A stretch of 25,747 nt of DNA. It comes from a virus. The notes below the pieces were generated by a model. It did no database searches and had not been told where the DNA came from. It saw only the letters and a program-made list of their open reading frames with translations. The DNA is taken from the IMG/VR virus record IMGVR_UViG_3300008262_000662, positions 1-25,747 of that record. One strand, written 5' to 3'. Both the position numbers and the translations under genes were made by a program. Positions 5,837 through 14,629 of the stretch are shown here, piece by piece (position 1 is the first letter of the stretch; each line of letters opens with the position of its first letter).

Positions 5837-6226
5837 ATGATTAAAGGCATTACGCAATCTGGTCGTTATATAGCAGTAACAAATGGTAACGCCAGCACTT
5901 ATGTAAACGGTTATTCTGGATTACAAGGTGTTGGCAATATGCGCTACAATACTACCAATCAAAATATGGAAGTATTTGATGGCAACAATTGGGTGCAACT
6001 TGGTATGAGTTATGCTACTGTTGGACTAAATGGCGAGGCAGAATCATTACTAGATTGGGCTCGTGAACAACGTGATAAACAACTAGCTTATCAAGCCATG
6101 TCAATAGAACATCCAGCAGTTAAAAACGCTTTTGATGCTTTTAAACGGGCAGAAGAACAATTAGATTTAGTTTATAAGTTATCAAAAGATCATGAAAAAG
6201 ATCTTGGAGAGTTGACTGGTCCATGA
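5837..6226 (+). CDS. Small protein with a fibre-like N-terminal motif (129 aa)
   Basis: The start is ATG 5837, one base after the clamp stop; an upstream in-frame ATG would overlap the clamp gene. Residues 1-50 contain NMRYNTTNQNMEVFDGNNWV, the short motif (MRYN, V/I-F/Y-DG-N-W) common in phage tail-fibre and virion proteins, where it forms a small beta unit. Residues 65-129 are helical and charged, probably a coiled coil (EHPAVKNAFDAFKRAEEQLD). Lying between clamp and DpdA it is out of place for a structural gene. It may be a small virion decoration or fibre-related protein; no specific function is recognised. Its last four bases overlap the start of the next gene. Confidence 0.65.
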   Translation: MIKGITQSGRYIAVTNGNASTYVNGYSGLQGVGNMRYNTTNQNMEVFDGNNWVQLGMSYATVGLNGEAESLLDWAREQRDKQLAYQAMSIEHPAVKNAFDAFKRAEEQLDLVYKLSKDHEKDLGELTGP

Positions 6227-7728
6227 ATAGAATAGATTATACAAAAACACAAAGAGACTACGCTGTTTATTTGCCAGCTATTAGTAGTTTCTATAACAAA
6301 ATTATTAGCAATCAAAGATACAATACAAAGAGTGCTGTAGATACAAAACGCTTTCCAAAAGGTTTTGAACATGGCACAGAAAGTATGAACTTTTTAGATG
6401 CAGAGCGTGGAGCATTTACATACAAATACGGATTGTACTCAGCAGGTCATGCTCAGTTAGATTTAGATAAAACACTGATTCAAGATGCAATGATCCAAGA
6501 ACGCAATAGAGAAAATACTATTATTTTAGGTGACTCGGGCGGATTCCAAATTGGTAAGGGCGTGTTAAAATTTGACTGGAGTGATTTTAAAGGTAAAGGT
6601 GCAAACAAAACTCGTGATCAAATCTTAAATTGGTTAGAGTTAACTGCTGATTGGAGTATGGTATTGGATGTTCCAACTTGGGCTAGTAATGAGTTACATC
6701 GAGAAAAAACTGGTTTAAAAAGTTTTCAAGATTGTTTAGATGCAACCATTTGGAACAACAATTATTTTGCACAAAACAGATTGGGGAATACTAAATTCCT
6801 AAATGTGTTACAAGGCAATAGTCCAGAAGAAGCAGACATTTGGTATGATGCTGTTAAGCATTTGCCATTTGAAGGTTGGGCGATGGGTTCACAAAATATG
6901 TGTAACATGCCAATTATCCTAAATAGACTTATTACAATGCGTGATGAGGGTATGCTTAAGGATAAAAATTGGATGCACTTCTTAGGTACTGCACCACTTG
7001 ACTGGGCTTGCTATTTGACTAGTATTCAACGTCAACTACGTAAACATTGTAATCCAAACATTACAATTAGTTTTGACTGTGCTAGTCCATACATTGCTGT
7101 TGCATATGGACTATCATATACTGATCCAAGTTTCCGTAGAGATAAATGGTCAATTATTATGGAAAAGGCGCCTGATAATAAAATATGGGCTGGAGATGAT
7201 ATACCATTCCCATGGCGCAGTAGTATTGGTGACCGTTTAACAATGGGCGATGTTTGTTATTACAAGCCAGGCGACTTAAACAAAATTGGTAAGGAAGGTA
7301 AAACTAGCTGGGACAGTTTTAGCTACGGTCTTTACATGGCGCATAATACAGAAATTCATATTCAAGCAGTACAACGTGCTAATCAATTAATGGATATGGA
7401 ATGTGCTAGATATAAGCCAGATTGGAGACAGTGGAAGAAAATGAATTCAAAAGATGAGAAAAGTGATAGCCCAAGCGAATGGGTTCCGCGAAATATCTTG
7501 TATTTTGATCGTTTTGTCCAAGAGCTATTTGAAAGTGACGATCCACAAAGTATGCTCAAACATGCACACAAATTCTTAACCGAATTGCAGGGCGGATTAC
7601 AGAGAGGAAAAGTTCAAAATGATACATTTAACAACTTGTTTGAAATGGAAGATCCTATGCCTAGTGAGAATGATCTTTCAGACATGAATAATGAAAAAAT
7701 TATTGAGCTTGAACATACTTTGGATTGA
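6223..7728 (+). CDS. dpdA: DpdA-like 7-deazaguanine DNA transglycosylase (TGT superfamily, 501 aa)
   Basis: Predicted to exchange guanine in phage DNA for a 7-deazaguanine base. The tRNA-guanine transglycosylase signature is present in the right order: ILGDSGGFQIG with the general acid/base D104; SFQDCLDAT (168-174) like the TGT SFEECLEAT region; VLQGN (196-199) for substrate recognition; EGWAMGSQ like the GYAIGG loop; FLGTAP like MGVGTP; and SFDCASPY with the likely nucleophile D285 in the FDC position. The CxCxxC zinc site of tRNA-acting TGTs is not apparent, which together with the 501-residue length and neighbouring folE and queE favours the DNA-acting DpdA branch. GGAG at 6206-6209 is rather far (13 nt) from the ATG. 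Confidence 0.82.
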   Translation: MNRIDYTKTQRDYAVYLPAISSFYNKIISNQRYNTKSAVDTKRFPKGFEHGTESMNFLDAERGAFTYKYGLYSAGHAQLDLDKTLIQDAMIQERNRENTIILGDSGGFQIGKGVLKFDWSDFKGKGANKTRDQILNWLELTADWSMVLDVPTWASNELHREKTGLKSFQDCLDATIWNNNYFAQNRLGNTKFLNVLQGNSPEEADIWYDAVKHLPFEGWAMGSQNMCNMPIILNRLITMRDEGMLKDKNWMHFLGTAPLDWACYLTSIQRQLRKHCNPNITISFDCASPYIAVAYGLSYTDPSFRRDKWSIIMEKAPDNKIWAGDDIPFPWRSSIGDRLTMGDVCYYKPGDLNKIGKEGKTSWDSFSYGLYMAHNTEIHIQAVQRANQLMDMECARYKPDWRQWKKMNSKDEKSDSPSEWVPRNILYFDRFVQELFESDDPQSMLKHAHKFLTELQGGLQRGKVQNDTFNNLFEMEDPMPSENDLSDMNNEKIIELEHTLD

Positions 7729-7779: not shown

Positions 7780-8316
7780 ATGCTAGACACACAACAAAGA
7801 CAAGACGTTACGTACTTTACAGGCTACGAAGTTGAGCATACTATTTGCCATGGTATGTTCACTTTGTTTGTCGTAGGTACTCCGCCTTTAGAAGAAATTT
7901 TGCGTAAAGCTGACGACACCCAAGCATATTTGGACGAAAGCAAACGTATTAAACATATCTACTTTGGAACAAGTCAAAGTTTTAATCCTAAAAATATTTC
8001 ACAAGAAGAATACAAACGATGGGATGACGTTATTGTAGGCTGTCTAAAAGCAGACTACTGGGTTACACTAGACTTTGGTGTTGAACACATTGAAGGTGTA
8101 TTGGAATCTTGTTATTGCGAATATCCTCGTTTTGTCCCTATGATTAGTGTTAAGTTACCTTACATTAATCAACTCAACTATAACGCCACACTTAAACTGG
8201 ATGACCGAACTTGGGGTGCTACAAATCCAGGTGTGTGGACACATCAACTACATGATCTAATGAGTAAAGACAAGTATACTCATTGGGATCAGTACACACA
8301 AGATACACCAACATGA
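7780..8316 (+). CDS. Conserved phage protein of unknown function between DpdA and the QueD-like gene (178 aa)
   Basis: No known enzyme motif is recognised. The N-terminal part (YFTGYEVEHTICHGMFTLFVVG, about residues 12-33) reads as beta strands with two closely spaced His (H20, H24) that could bind metal. The middle (IKHIYFGTSQSFN; LKADYWVTLDFGVEHIEG) looks like an alpha/beta fold. The C-terminus is polar. As I remember, proteins of this type occur beside deazaguanine genes in T4-like cyanophages, but that is unverified. The ATG at 7780 is chosen because the conserved-looking TGYEVEHT stretch begins 12 residues later and the next Met is at residue 25. Its end overlaps the next gene by 4 bases (ATGA), so the two are likely co-translated. 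A role in the modification pathway is inferred from position. Confidence 0.75.
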   Translation: MLDTQQRQDVTYFTGYEVEHTICHGMFTLFVVGTPPLEEILRKADDTQAYLDESKRIKHIYFGTSQSFNPKNISQEEYKRWDDVIVGCLKADYWVTLDFGVEHIEGVLESCYCEYPRFVPMISVKLPYINQLNYNATLKLDDRTWGATNPGVWTHQLHDLMSKDKYTHWDQYTQDTPT

Positions 8317-8708
8317 TTATCAAACAAGACGTCCGTCCTCACAAAATGATTTGGGTCACATTTCGTAAGGAGGGTATTCACAAATACCCAGCGGCCGCAA
8401 CTGATCCTAACCTTGCAACAGGAGATGAATATGATGTCTCGTTTTTGGCTAATCCCCATCGCCATATTTTTCATTTTAGGGTATGGCTTAGTGTCACCCA
8501 CAATGACAGAGATGTGGAGTTTATACAATTCAAGCGATGGCTCGAAAAACTGTATTCTAGCAACGAAGGTGTATTGTCGCTAGACTACAAGAGTTGTGAG
8601 ATGATGAGCGATGATCTATATGCTCAGATTCACGCAAAGTATCCAGACCGTGAGGTTTGGATTGAGGTCTCCGAAGACGGAGAAAATGGTTCATTTATCA
8701 AATATTAA
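8313..8708 (+). CDS. queD: QueD-like T-fold protein (6-carboxytetrahydropterin synthase family, 131 aa)
   Basis: QueD makes 6-carboxytetrahydropterin from dihydroneopterin triphosphate, the step between FolE and QueE. The three zinc histidines of the family seem conserved: H23 in FRKEGIHKYP (family FxxAHxL) and H49/H51 in NPHRHIFHFRV (family NLHGHNYRVEV). SCEMMSDDL (94-102) aligns with the family PT-SE-LA helix, keeping E96, and VWIEVSEDGENG matches the C-terminal V-x-E strand. However, the catalytic Cys expected four residues before the first HxH histidine is Leu, and the expected Asp-His pair reads D91-Tyr92. C95 is the only nearby cysteine. It may be a diverged enzyme or a T-fold protein with another reaction. 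ATG 8313 gives an ATGA overlap with the upstream gene. Confidence 0.6.
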   Translation: MIIKQDVRPHKMIWVTFRKEGIHKYPAAATDPNLATGDEYDVSFLANPHRHIFHFRVWLSVTHNDRDVEFIQFKRWLEKLYSSNEGVLSLDYKSCEMMSDDLYAQIHAKYPDREVWIEVSEDGENGSFIKY

Positions 8709-10401: not shown

Positions 10402-10431
10402 GTAAAATATTAAAGTATTTTGGAGATTAAA

Positions 10432-11208
10432 TTGGTTTATAATAAAGCATACATCAGTAACGATATTGACGAGTCAGTGTCATTTGATAACATTGACGAT
10501 AAAGGATATCAAGAAGAAAAATATCTAGGCAATTACCTTCGTTCTAAAATGAAACGTGAAGGTAAGCGTTTTTGGGCAGGCGATAATATTAGTGAATATA
10601 TCAGCAACGAACATGTTAAAGAACAACTAATTGATGAAGCCGCAGAAGCATTTGAAACTGTTCTAGACCGTTTGCTAATTGATAGAGAAAATGATCCTAA
10701 TAGCAAGGGCACGGCACGTAGGTTGGCCAAGATGTACTTTAATGAAATAATGGCAGGTAGATATGACCCAGCACCAGACGCAACATGTTTCCCAAACGAT
10801 TCGGCGGACCGTTATGAAGGTATGCTGGTTGTTCGCAGTGAGCTTCGTAGTATGTGTAGCCATCATCATCAACCTGTGGTTGGTGTTGCTTATATTGGTA
10901 TTATTGCTGCCGAGAAACTTATTGGACTCTCAAAGTATACACGCATCGCACAATGGTGTGCCCGACGTGGTACTCTCCAGGAGGAACTTTGTAATGACAT
11001 TGCTAGGGAGATCGCCAAAGCTACAGGGGCCAAAGACATAGGTGTTTATATTCAAGCTACACATGGTTGTTGTGAAAATCGTGGTATTATGGCACATAGC
11101 AGTCTAACACAAACAACTGTACTACAAGGTTCGTTTAAAACTGATCCTGGTGCAAAGAAAGAATTTTTTGACAACATCAAACTACAGCAAGAATTTGCCC
11201 CACGATGA
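10432..11208 (+). CDS. folE: GTP cyclohydrolase I FolE (258 aa)
   Basis: Converts GTP to 7,8-dihydroneopterin triphosphate, the entry to both folate and 7-deazaguanine synthesis. FolE hallmarks are clear: MCSHHHQPVVGVAYIG with zinc ligands C142 and H144/H145, GLSKYTRIAQWCARR (166-179), and ATHGCCENRGIM with the third zinc Cys at 213/214, then the SSLTQTTVLQGSF strand. The ~130-residue N-terminal part is longer than in many bacterial enzymes. TTG 10432 is preferred as the start because TGGAG at 10421-10425 lies 6 bases before it; the in-frame TTG at 10420 would fall on the ribosome-binding site itself. No ATG is available nearby. It forms an operon with the following unknown gene by an ATGA overlap. 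Confidence 0.93.
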   Translation: MVYNKAYISNDIDESVSFDNIDDKGYQEEKYLGNYLRSKMKREGKRFWAGDNISEYISNEHVKEQLIDEAAEAFETVLDRLLIDRENDPNSKGTARRLAKMYFNEIMAGRYDPAPDATCFPNDSADRYEGMLVVRSELRSMCSHHHQPVVGVAYIGIIAAEKLIGLSKYTRIAQWCARRGTLQEELCNDIAREIAKATGAKDIGVYIQATHGCCENRGIMAHSSLTQTTVLQGSFKTDPGAKKEFFDNIKLQQEFAPR

Positions 11209-11423
11209 TTCGAAAACACAAAAAATTTTTAGGAACAAAAGTTCCTGGAATAGATGAACAACATAATTGGATGAAAACATACAGTATTGATCCAATTGAA
11301 CTAGGTCAAATGTGTGAGGAATATCCATCGTTAGAACGCAGTTGGAAACAGTTTAAAATTGTGTATGAACTATGTAAGGTAGAAAATGAAACTGACAAAC
11401 ATTTTTCTGAATTGGCTAGATAA
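11205..11423 (+). CDS. Small conserved protein, unknown function (72 aa)
   Basis: Translationally coupled to folE by an ATGA overlap. Contains the compact segment SIDPIELGQMCEEYPSLERS followed by WKQFKIVYELC, predicted as two helices. Two Cys (in QMCEEY and YELCK) are 18 residues apart. The sequence has the look of a phage-specific small helical protein, with no known motif. Its 3' end overlaps the cupin gene by 38 bases. Confidence 0.7.
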   Translation: MIRKHKKFLGTKVPGIDEQHNWMKTYSIDPIELGQMCEEYPSLERSWKQFKIVYELCKVENETDKHFSELAR

Positions 11424-11859
11424 GTGTGATCGCAAACGTGTTATTATGGACCGTACTTGTGACGAGCCACTTTTGACACGCTATTATCTTTTTTTAAAGG
11501 ATCGCAAAACGTTCCCGTTTAATGTGTTCTTACATAAGTTTCATAAAGGTGATCCAGGCGATGTACACGATCATCCTTGGCCTTATGCCACACTTATTCT
11601 CAAAGGTGGTTACTATGAATATACTCCAATATTTGAGTACGGTAAAATGGTTGGAGAAAAGAAGCACTGGCGAGGCCCTGGTCATTTCCGTATTTGTGGC
11701 GCATACAGTTATCATAGAATAGAGCTAAAGCCTGATGTTACTCCTTGGACTTTGTTCATGCCTGGTCCACAAAAAAGAGAATGGGGGTTTCTTGTTAATA
11801 ATCGTTGGGTCCAAAACGATCAATACTTAAAGGAAAAATATGAACAAGCTCATAATTGA
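11386..11859 (+). CDS. Cupin-fold protein (157 aa)
   Basis: The central barrel shows a cupin metal site: GDVHDHPWPYATLILKGGY with H61 and H63, and SYHRIEL with H110, with the typical RGPGHFR turn between. The family includes dioxygenases, isomerases and sugar epimerases; substrate and reaction cannot be read from the sequence. ATG 11386 with AAGG at 11376-11379 is chosen because the segment LDKCDRKRVIMDR before the next Met looks folded and conserved. The overlap of 38 bases with the upstream gene and 20 with the phosphoribosyltransferase gene places it in the folE operon. Confidence 0.75.
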   Translation: MKLTNIFLNWLDKCDRKRVIMDRTCDEPLLTRYYLFLKDRKTFPFNVFLHKFHKGDPGDVHDHPWPYATLILKGGYYEYTPIFEYGKMVGEKKHWRGPGHFRICGAYSYHRIELKPDVTPWTLFMPGPQKREWGFLVNNRWVQNDQYLKEKYEQAHN

Positions 11860-12400
11860 TAATAATCAATTTAAAGGGCTAGTTGCTAAAATTTGCAGAG
11901 ACATTACTGCAAGTAACTGGCGACCAGATTATATTGTAGGAATAACTCGAGGTGGACTTTTGCCAGCAGTTATGATCAGTCACTACTTTGATGTTAGATG
12001 TGAAACTTTAAAAATAAGTTTGCGTGATAGTGACAATGGTCCAGAAAGTAATTTGTGGATGGCCGAGGAAGCGTTTGGATACATTCCTATAGATATGCAA
12101 AAAGGTATCGATAAGAGAAGCGATGCAACCTACAAGAAAAATATTCTTATAGTTGACGATATTAATGACAGCGGAGCTACTTTTAATTGGCTGTTAAATG
12201 ATTGGCCCAGTGGGTGTTTGCCAAATGACGAAGCTTGGAACAACGTTTGGAACAACAATGTTCGATTTGCTGTAATTATTGATAACTTATCTAGTAAGTG
12301 TAATGTAAAAATGGATTACACTGGTATGGAAGTTAACAAAGCAGAAAAAGATGTTTGGATTGAATTCCCTTATGAAGAATGGTGGACTAAAAATGCGTGA
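11840..12400 (+). CDS. Phosphoribosyltransferase, type I (186 aa)
   Basis: The PRPP-binding motif NILIVDDINDSGATF (about 101-115) and the early YIVGITRGGLLPAVMISHYF (31-50) are the two diagnostic elements of type I phosphoribosyltransferases, closest in layout to xanthine/hypoxanthine/guanine salvage enzymes. It would join a purine base to PRPP in the cytoplasm. In this context it could raise the guanine nucleotide supply for FolE, which is inference. An unusual acidic/Trp-rich insertion (about 117-140, with WNNVWNNN) follows the PRPP loop. The start overlaps the cupin gene by 20 bases; AAAGGAAAA lies just upstream. Confidence 0.82.
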   Translation: MNKLIIDNNQFKGLVAKICRDITASNWRPDYIVGITRGGLLPAVMISHYFDVRCETLKISLRDSDNGPESNLWMAEEAFGYIPIDMQKGIDKRSDATYKKNILIVDDINDSGATFNWLLNDWPSGCLPNDEAWNNVWNNNVRFAVIIDNLSSKCNVKMDYTGMEVNKAEKDVWIEFPYEEWWTKNA

Positions 12401-12806
12401 AATTGTAATGTTAGATCAACCCCCTTTTATAGAAGACAGTAAAGCTCCTTGGGATAATTTATTAGAAGAAGACTTTCACGTCAAAGTTTTTTACGATAAA
12501 TATCCCGTTACCGAGGGGCATTTGCTTTTTGTGCCTAAATACAATACAGTAGCAGTGTTAATGGATGCCTTTGAAGACGCTGTGCGTGATGGTATGCGTA
12601 TGGTAGAAGATGGCGAATGCGACGGATTTAACGTCGGGTTCAACTATAGTAAGGCAGCAGGTCAAACTGTAGGTTGGCCGCATGTTCACCTTATTCCAAG
12701 AAGAACAGGTGATATGGAAGATCCAACAGGTGGTGTTCGTCATGTAATTCCAGAAAAAGGAAACTACAAAAAAGACGAAATTGGAAAAATTAAAAAATCA
12801 GTTTAA
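12393..12806 (+). CDS. HIT-family nucleotide hydrolase/transferase-like protein (137 aa)
   Basis: ATG 12393 (MREIVMLDQPPF) overlaps the phosphoribosyltransferase stop by 8 bases. The HIT core is seen as YPVTEGHLLFVPKYN (residues 37-51), NVGFNYSKAAGQTV (80-93) and GWPHVHLIPRRTGD (94-107). The canonical triad H-x-H-x-H reads W-P-H-V-H here, so the first His is Trp95 while H97 and H99 remain. HIT proteins hydrolyse or transfer nucleotidyl groups from NMP adducts and dinucleotides. The function in the phage is unknown; a nucleotide-metabolism role fits the neighbouring phosphoribosyltransferase. Confidence 0.85.
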   Translation: MREIVMLDQPPFIEDSKAPWDNLLEEDFHVKVFYDKYPVTEGHLLFVPKYNTVAVLMDAFEDAVRDGMRMVEDGECDGFNVGFNYSKAAGQTVGWPHVHLIPRRTGDMEDPTGGVRHVIPEKGNYKKDEIGKIKKSV

Positions 12807-13573
12807 TGCGTATTTCACTATTAGCATTAGTTCTATTGCTATCCTGTTTCCCTGTCTTTGCCAAAAAGACAAACGATTATTCTGTCTTAATTTATAATGA
12901 ATCTTTATCTCACCAAGTAGTTGCTTCTAATTTTGATCAAAGACCAATTGCTAGTCTAACAAAATTAATGACTGCAATGGTAGCATTAGATTATCGATTG
13001 AACCTAGATTCAAAAGCATTTTTGTCTGACAAGGCAGGTAGTAAACTCCCCAAAAAAATGTATACAAGGAGAGAACTTCTTAATGCTATGTTAGTTAGAA
13101 GTGATAATGGGGCGGCAGAAACTTTAGCTAATGATTACCCAGGCGGAAGAAAAATGTTCATTAAAGCAATGAACATTAAGGCTAAAAATTTAGGAATGAA
13201 TAATACTGTTTTTGTAGATCCAACAGGATTGGGCAAAGGTAATATTTCAAATATTGAAGACGTTAATAAAATGATGTCGAACGCTTCCAAATATAATTTT
13301 ATTAGTAATTTTAGTGTTAAAAAAGAAGTTTCTTTTGAAATACCTAAAAAGAATAATAAAACAAAAATAGTCACATTGGAAAATACCAATAAAAAATTGC
13401 TAAATGAATTTAATTTTATTACAGCTAGTAAAACAGGATTTACTTATCCGGCAGGTTTTTGTCTAGCACTAGCAGTTCAAAAAAATGAAAACAAATATAT
13501 CATTGTTGTATTAGGTGCAAAAAATCAATCACACCGTGCTCAAATAGTAAAAGATTTGATAGAAAAAATATGA
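12806..13573 (+). CDS. Secreted D-alanyl-D-alanine carboxypeptidase/endopeptidase (peptidase S11, 255 aa)
   Basis: A penicillin-binding-protein-type enzyme cutting D-Ala peptide bonds in peptidoglycan in the periplasm. The three serine motifs are intact: ASLTK (S50, K53), RSDNG (S99-D100-N101) and SKTG (K209-T210-G211). Residues 1-19 form a signal peptide with a positive N-terminus, a Leu-rich core and VFA before the likely cleavage site. The protein lacks the C-terminal domain of DacA-type enzymes and in length resembles the short PBP7/PbpG endopeptidases. It shares one base with the HIT gene (TAATG) and overlaps the next gene by ATGA. It is unusual cargo for a T4-like phage and probably host-derived. 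Confidence 0.92.
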   Translation: MRISLLALVLLLSCFPVFAKKTNDYSVLIYNESLSHQVVASNFDQRPIASLTKLMTAMVALDYRLNLDSKAFLSDKAGSKLPKKMYTRRELLNAMLVRSDNGAAETLANDYPGGRKMFIKAMNIKAKNLGMNNTVFVDPTGLGKGNISNIEDVNKMMSNASKYNFISNFSVKKEVSFEIPKKNNKTKIVTLENTNKKLLNEFNFITASKTGFTYPAGFCLALAVQKNENKYIIVVLGAKNQSHRAQIVKDLIEKI

Positions 13574-13810: not shown

Positions 13811-14629
13811 ATGAGTAAAATTAAAATAGGACGTTACATGGGCGTTCCTTCTGTTTTCTTACGCACGTTTGGTTGTAACTTCAAGTGTGCAGGCTTTGGC
13901 ATGCCAAAAGGTCAACTAAGTACCGAAGCAGATGCAATCGCACAAATTGCAGATAAGTTTAAAACTTATGAAGAACTTCCTCTAGTTAGTACAGGATGTG
14001 ATAGTTATGCAAGTTGGGATCCTAGATTTAAAGATCTAAGTCCTATGCTTGAATCTGATGCTATTGTGGAACGTATTATGGAATTACTTCCATACAATGG
14101 ATGGGGAGACGAACATCTAGTCATTACAGGTGGCGAACCTTTGCTAGGTTGGCAACGTGCCTATGAAGACTTACTTATTCACCCAAACATGTCTAGATTA
14201 AAGGAAATAACATTTGAAACAAACGGGACACAACGTTTGACAGGTGATCTACACAATTTTCTACAACATTGGGTCAATCAAGATCCAGAAAGAGAAGTAA
14301 CTTTTTCTGTTAGTGCTAAACTAAGTTGTTCTGGTGAAGCAAGGCATGAAGCAATTATTCCTGAAATTGTATGCGAATACGAAACAATTGGCTACACATA
14401 TTTAAAATTTGTAATAGCCACTGAAGAAGATGCAGAAGAGGCATTAGAAACTGTAGACATTTATAGAGAAAACGGATTCCGTGGCCCAGTTTATTTGATG
14501 CCAGTGGGCGGGGTTGAAAGTGTATACACATTAAATAATCGCCGTGTAGCAGAACTAGCAATGAAGCACGGTTTTAGATATAGTGATCGTTTGCAAGTTC
14601 CATTATTTAAAAATGAGTGGGGTACTTAA
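13811..14629 (+). CDS. queE: QueE-like radical SAM enzyme, 7-carboxy-7-deazaguanine synthase (272 aa)
   Basis: QueE converts 6-carboxytetrahydropterin into 7-carboxy-7-deazaguanine. Seen: GVPSVFLRTFGCNFKC (11-26), the QueE-style start of a radical SAM barrel; VITGGEPLLGWQ with the SAM motif GGEP at 107-110; FETNGT after it; and FSVSAKLSCSGE, like the QueE SPK strand. The usual third cluster cysteine is missing: position 29 is Phe (C22-x3-C26-x2-F29). A cysteine in STGCDSYASW (C63) probably replaces it, because GCDS resembles the CDTD that follows the third cysteine in QueE. This gives CX3CX36C, with an inserted helix between. At 272 residues it is longer than typical QueE. It has its own promoter and probably a leaderless start. 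Confidence 0.85.
   Translation: MSKIKIGRYMGVPSVFLRTFGCNFKCAGFGMPKGQLSTEADAIAQIADKFKTYEELPLVSTGCDSYASWDPRFKDLSPMLESDAIVERIMELLPYNGWGDEHLVITGGEPLLGWQRAYEDLLIHPNMSRLKEITFETNGTQRLTGDLHNFLQHWVNQDPEREVTFSVSAKLSCSGEARHEAIIPEIVCEYETIGYTYLKFVIATEEDAEEALETVDIYRENGFRGPVYLMPVGGVESVYTLNNRRVAELAMKHGFRYSDRLQVPLFKNEWGT

Follow-up and report, generated by a model that had tools for sequence, protein, structure and literature searches.

A phage QueE-like radical SAM enzyme with a probable insertion between the second and third cysteines of its cluster motif

QueE is the 7-carboxy-7-deazaguanine synthase, the product of which is an unusual base of DNA or RNA, and the spacing CX3CX2C serves to recognise radical SAM enzymes. 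The QueE of B. subtilis (PDB 5tgs/5th5) carries this canonical motif. In the portion of the literature source drawn on here, the unusual QueE motif is CX14CX2C, that of B. multivorans QueE (PDB 4njg), and the far-spaced one is the CX2CX21CX5C of PhnJ (PMC4389238). PhnJ presumably sets a precedent among radical SAM enzymes for a distant third cysteine, but it belongs to an unrelated family and has its motif close to the C-terminus. The E. coli enzyme (PDB 6nhl) is described, in the part of the paper used here, as binding its substrate through Q13, E15 and R27 and its cluster through C31, C35 and C38, with T40 as Mg ligand; the R27A and C38A variants abolished queuosine, whereas the effect of Q13A was negligible (PMC11142719).

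The window, by which we mean the whole stretch of viral DNA analysed (25,747 nt; IMG/VR record IMGVR_UViG_3300008262_000662, positions 1 to 25,747), encodes a QueE-like radical SAM protein whose cysteines are arranged differently (Table 1). The original prediction had quoted C22, C26, F29 and C63, the last within STGCDSYASW, as a CX3CX36C layout, and the translation of the open reading frame agrees in every position. The canonical CX3CX2C motif is absent, as 36 residues rather than 2 separate the second and third cysteines (Cys2 and Cys3). Nor does the protein fall under queE_Cx14CxxC (TIGR04508), with 3 residues between Cys1 and Cys2 and 21.2 bits against a cut-off of 240.

Table 1. Positions in the window of the QueE-like gene, its proposed motif residues, FolE and a phosphoribosyltransferase-like gene of the same neighbourhood.
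Feature	Position	Strand	Basis
GTP cyclohydrolase I (FolE), first pathway enzyme	10420..11208	+	PF01227 133.3 bits, phrog_2197
Phosphoribosyltransferase-like gene	11840..12400	+	PF00156 46.8 bits
QueE-like radical SAM gene, 272 aa (P0001)	13811..14629	+	open ORF, phrog_2076, PF04055
Junction of in-frame 30-base deletion, 10 codons (AELFYSIQGE) absent	13827..13828	+	protein and DNA alignment
R18, matching the substrate-binding R27 of E. coli QueE	13862..13864	+	R in 25/25; alignment to 6nhl
C22, first proposed cluster cysteine	13874..13876	+	81/81 close, 25/25 diverse sequences
C26, second proposed cluster cysteine	13886..13888	+	81/81 close, 25/25 diverse sequences
Cys2-Cys3 segment, 36 residues against the canonical 2, AGF at start, G at end	13889..13996	+	
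C63, proposed third cluster cysteine	13997..13999	+	81/81 close, 25/25 diverse sequences; alignment to third cysteine of B. subtilis QueE
D64-S65, counterpart of E. coli QueE D39-T40	14000..14005	+	D 25/25; S 22/25, T 3/25
GGEP motif, G107-P110	14129..14140	+	

The window protein was compared with its relatives at two depths. The close set (n = 81) holds the window copy and the best 80 of 578 relatives from a scan of IMG/VR viral contigs; the diverse alignment (n = 25) holds the window, six close loci and 18 phage records picked for diversity from tblastn lists of 132 records at E 1e-5 and 173 at 0.01. The displaced layout is not a matter of chance, because C22, C26 and C63 are kept in all 81 close sequences (the window and the best 80 of 578 relatives) at a Cys2-Cys3 spacing of 34 to 39, namely 36 in 52/81, 39 in 13/81, 38 in 9/81 and 34 in 7/81. 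In the diverse alignment, the only columns made up wholly of cysteine are the three of the cluster motif, and both canonical CX3CX2C sequences place their third cysteine in the C63 column. The original prediction had proposed an alignment of phage QueE homologues as a check on C63 and had likened GCDS to the CDTD of QueE. C63 is supported as the counterpart of the third cluster cysteine: its column in the diverse alignment is invariant (25/25) and is the third cluster cysteine column of the CX3CX2C QueEs, and the third cysteine is followed by D in 25/25 and then by S or T in 25/25, at the positions of the Mg site. A displaced third cysteine, at a spacing of 6 to 40, is found in 16 of the 18 diverse phage QueEs, and CX3CX2C in the other two.

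The same arrangement occurs in cellular genomes. A plasmid-borne QueE of Sulfurovum mangrovi, adjoining a QueD gene, reads CX3CX16C, and when it was used as query against 150 Campylobacterota genomes, 124 matched and all 124 were read. The third cysteine is displaced in 114/124 of these QueE-like genes, at a spacing of 6, 7, 12, 15, 16, 17 or 18, and CX3CX2C is present in 10/124 (2 by pattern, 8 by eye). Campylobacterota and phages have in common a GF...G bracket around the insert: phenylalanine stands three residues past Cys2 in 113, and glycine before Cys3 in 108, of the 114 displaced Campylobacterota proteins, and the phenylalanine recurs in 81/81 close and 21/23 displaced diverse sequences. 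A view of the layout as an oddity of the window gene is not supported, as it is common to 16/18 phage QueEs and 114/124 Campylobacterota genes; a restriction to the window phage was rejected on the phage alignment and the Campylobacterota survey alike. Four cellular QueEs from outside Campylobacterota (three haloarchaea, one Streptomyces) are all CX3CX2C. Seven Campylobacterota genomes (L166-L169, L171-L173) have as their sole match a shorter CX3CX2C protein, in which CDD or CDE follows the motif in place of CD[S/T]; these may form a further QueE-like subfamily.

Kinship with QueE, which had been proposed from the letters alone, is upheld by three lines of comparison: the PHROGs profile, a PDB sequence profile match and structural matches of a close relative. 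By profile, the window protein is a member of phrog_2076, 'QueE-like radical SAM domain' (E 2.6e-45), a label that spans both the canonical and the displaced form, being attached in their records to Laurie (CX3CX2C) and KVP40 (CX3CX40C). Pfam Radical_SAM (PF04055) gives 31.6 bits (cut-off 29.5), the match beginning at residue 63, and G107-P110 is presumably the GGEP motif of radical SAM enzymes. When a profile of 65 sequences was set against all PDB chain sequences, only three distinct sequences matched, all of them QueE. The alignment with B. subtilis QueE breaks off one residue beyond Cys2 and picks up again where the C63 column meets the third cysteine of that chain. The two proteins share the arginine before the motif and, after the third cysteine, D-S and an aromatic-rich stretch (CDSAFTWD in B. 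subtilis, CDSYASWD here), but differ in having 2 and 36 residues, respectively, between Cys2 and Cys3.

Structural comparison points the same way. An AlphaFold2 model of L001, an intact relative 93% identical to the window protein over aligned columns, has a mean pLDDT of 90.3 and a pTM of 0.90. Its best match (VIA-align 2) is B. subtilis QueE (Z 21.9, rmsd 2.5, 223 residues aligned), and the QueEs of E. coli (Z 18.5, rmsd 2.9, 203 residues) and B. multivorans (Z 17.4, rmsd 3.4, 202 residues) also precede the next protein, pyruvate formate-lyase activating enzyme (Z 15.0, rmsd 3.7, 215 residues); Foldseek alone ranks the E. coli and B. multivorans QueEs at the top. The window-allele model matches the QueE chains with Z 13.2-16.5, the lowest of these values being level with those of the proteins ranked next (13.1 and 13.0). 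Both L001 and the window protein are predicted, on these models, to have the radical SAM / QueE fold.

It might be argued that the protein is a radical SAM enzyme of some other function that merely resembles QueE. The curated cut-offs of the NCBIfam QueE models are indeed far from being reached (31.8 vs 206.1 bits), which counts against the QueE reading, and the canonical-motif QueE of phage Laurie likewise lies under the cut-off (83.2 vs 206.1 bits). However, the substrate, cluster and Mg positions shared with E. coli QueE (PMC11142719, in the part used here) are conserved in the 25-sequence alignment, QueE is the top structural match and the sole PDB family by sequence, and a FolE gene lies nearby. 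We regard another function as improbable.

The C63 column falls on the third QueE cysteine and the L001 model is QueE-like, which together argue for an insertion between Cys2 and Cys3. This placement, given in the original prediction as unlike that of the CX14CX2C QueE, is upheld by the 25-sequence alignment and the PDB profile match. The B. multivorans enzyme has in common with the window family the QueE fold and an enlarged cluster loop; its own enlargement, however, lies between Cys1 and Cys2, whereas that of the window family would lie between Cys2 and Cys3 (motif from the part of PMC4389238 drawn on here). E. coli QueE differs in another way, by an extra region (E45-W67) which follows its third cysteine C38 and serves a further function, in cell division (PMC11142719, same part). 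We suggest, with a probability of roughly 0.8, that the window gene comes from a line of QueE enzymes whose radical SAM cluster motif has acquired a loop between Cys2 and Cys3, and we read the displaced-cysteine layout as a functional QueE variant. Sequence comparison establishes where the three cysteines lie and that they are conserved, that their columns match those of canonical QueE, that the layout is spread over phages and Campylobacterota, and that FolE is present nearby.

In such an enzyme, the chain would depart from the cluster loop behind C-x-G-F, run on for about 6-40 residues and re-enter it at G-C-D-[S/T]. C22, C26 and C63 would be the ligands of the same three irons as in other radical SAM enzymes, in a single [4Fe-4S] cluster, and the D-S/T pair after C63 would stay where the Mg site normally lies. 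The lineage would convert 6-carboxytetrahydropterin to CDG for a 7-deazaguanine base, destined for phage DNA or host tRNA.

Could the cluster instead be held by C22, C26 and some residue other than C63? Candidates would be a cysteine of the insert in some relatives and C173 or C188 here. A further cysteine does lie inside the insert in 31/114 displaced Campylobacterota proteins, which counts against the simplest reading, and C173 and C188 are found in 80/81 and 74/81 close sequences (the window and the best 80 of 578 relatives). However, in the diverse set these two positions are cysteine in only 9/25 and 7/25, compared with 25/25 for C63, and among the long-insert phages an extra insert cysteine is present in 0/81 close and 1/23 displaced diverse sequences. 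A ligand other than C63 therefore seems very improbable to us; C173 and C188 in particular were rejected, since they are not conserved beyond close relatives. Separately, 24/114 of the Campylobacterota proteins (L148, L149, L151-L158 and others) have an extra cysteine at Cys2+5, in GFGC or GFNC, and this could possibly be an alternative ligand or a redox partner.

How often the insertion arose was approached with a tree of 64 rows, which is midpoint-rooted and has several long branches, with a possible long-branch join flagged. The 23 long-insert phage sequences lie to one side of a branch (support 97/92) and 32 Campylobacterota on another (95/92), and the phages, the Campylobacterota and Campylobacter phage CP220 are split from the canonical rows, HVTV-2 and phiSM (95/88). 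Haloarcula virus HVTV-2 (CX3CX22C) and Cellulophaga phage phiSM (CX3CX6C) have inserts without the GF...G bracket and are grouped with canonical QueEs, so insertion at this place probably arose more than once. The topology would fit a GF...G insert that arose once, with the inserts of HVTV-2 and phiSM arising independently of it, an interpretation to which we attach little weight. No relative was found when genome contigs were scanned with the HVTV-2 protein. A more speculative reading, which we consider unlikely, makes the insert a functional module placed directly within the iron-sulphur loop and retained as a single lineage by Campylobacterota and large phages. Were it so, the insert could be, for example, a docking or gating element for an electron donor or for a phage or host partner, and a second role of the enzyme could follow, as with the extra region of E. 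coli QueE.

Neither an account of a QueE with a displaced third cysteine nor a biochemical test of such an enzyme turned up in searches of the open-access full-text literature; most subscription papers are outside this scope, so that absence is unproven. A QueE lineage with its third cysteine 6-40 residues off would mean that the cluster loop can open between Cys2 and Cys3 too, in an arrangement found in most of the Campylobacterota genes read and in many large phages. The displaced QueEs offer a ready test of the tolerance of the cluster loop to insertion and of whether the insert has a role. They also carry a warning, as displaced-cysteine enzymes will escape scans with the short motif.

The window copy has lost part of its N-terminus, a loss of 10 residues that the original prediction does not mention. 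The protein begins MSKIKIGRYMG, where 80/80 close relatives (the best 80 of 578) have MSKIKIAELFYSIQGEGRYMG or a near variant; these same 80 encode AELFYSIQGE or a near variant that the window lacks, and in the DNA the gap is exactly 30 bases, located after 13827. The deletion takes out the counterparts of Q13 and E15 of E. coli QueE, i.e. the substrate-binding QGE motif. Among the Q-x-E and R substrate positions, the window protein keeps R18 only, whereas 80/80 close relatives keep all. The model of the window allele has a mean pLDDT of 82.7, against 90.3 for L001, with residues 1-7, 235-238 and 268-272 under 50, and matches B. subtilis QueE with Z 16.5 (rmsd 2.8, 207 residues), against Z 21.9 for L001.

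In our view, either the window copy lacks activity or the record was wrongly assembled, and we do not consider the family as such inactive; the observations agree with a recent deletion as well as with an assembly error. That the gene is a dead or dying allele, in which the deletion removed QGE and the first strand and no CDG is made, has in our view a slightly better than even chance. The universal presence of the missing stretch in the close relatives and the weaker model both speak for it, as does the binding of substrate by Q13 and E15 in E. coli QueE (PMC11142719, in the part used here), although the same source reports the negligible effect of Q13A on Q formation. The rest of the gene, moreover, is in frame, and its divergence from L001 (dN/dS 0.039) indicates strong purifying selection, a value in which a deletion of recent date would not show. 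For the phosphoribosyltransferase and cupin genes, the same comparison gave no dN/dS value, owing to saturation. A metagenome assembly error, with an intact gene in the real phage, we rate as plausible but short of an even chance. The junction pattern has no second occurrence among the viral contigs scanned, a set from which near-identical records may be missing, and none of the 80 close relatives (best 80 of 578) has the gap; against an error stand the exactly in-frame gap and the neighbours aligned to L001 (FolE, PRT, HIT, 15025, 17504, 18682), which show no frame break.

The surroundings of the gene bear on its pathway. Among the 21 related loci of at least 12 kb, FolE is present in 20 and the phosphoribosyltransferase-like gene in all 21; QueD is present in only 2/21 and QueC in 0/21, which counts against our preferred explanation. 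Over all 93 related loci, most of them short, the numbers are 54 for FolE, 54 for the phosphoribosyltransferase-like gene, 7 for QueD and 0 for QueC. In Synechococcus phage BUCT-ZZ01, QueE, phosphoribosyltransferase, QueD and FolE lie side by side, with the phosphoribosyltransferase adjoining QueE. Vibrio phage nt-1, whose QueE is CX3CX40C, has dPreQ0, dADG and dG+ at low level in its DNA, and in HVTV-1, to judge by its name related to the HVTV-2 whose QueE was read here, about 30% of G is present as dPreQ1 (PMC6884629, in the part used here). Hosts may contribute to the modified bases of nt-1 and HVTV-1. The QueE of phage 9g, a protein outside the sequences compared here, replaces E. coli QueE (PMC6884629, same part). 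For the displaced-cysteine QueE itself, we infer the role in this pathway.

Several other reading frames of the window, all on the plus strand, deserve mention. A D-alanyl-D-alanine carboxypeptidase (12806-13573; Peptidase_S11, 130.9 bits), the N-terminus of which is hydrophobic and signal-like, sits in the phage pathway neighbourhood, and a phrog_4786 'cysteine dioxygenase'-like frame (11386-11859) sits between FolE and the phosphoribosyltransferase-like gene. A frame of phrog_17812, function unknown (8283-8708), is found in 12/21 long related loci and has a 38% identical counterpart in BUCT-ZZ01; it gave no PDB sequence match. The 501-aa frame at 6223-7728 contains LGDSGGFQ, which we take to be a tRNA-guanine-transglycosylase-like motif, and may possibly encode a DpdA-like base exchanger; comparison with Pfam, PHROGs and the PDB sequences gave no match for it, and none of the 93 related loci searched has a copy. 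Finally, the translation of the frame at 605-1585 has a near-perfect internal repeat of ~30 residues, in which GDGNLANNAKPYDKVTRGDVIAGRLGKDEMGGKK appears twice.
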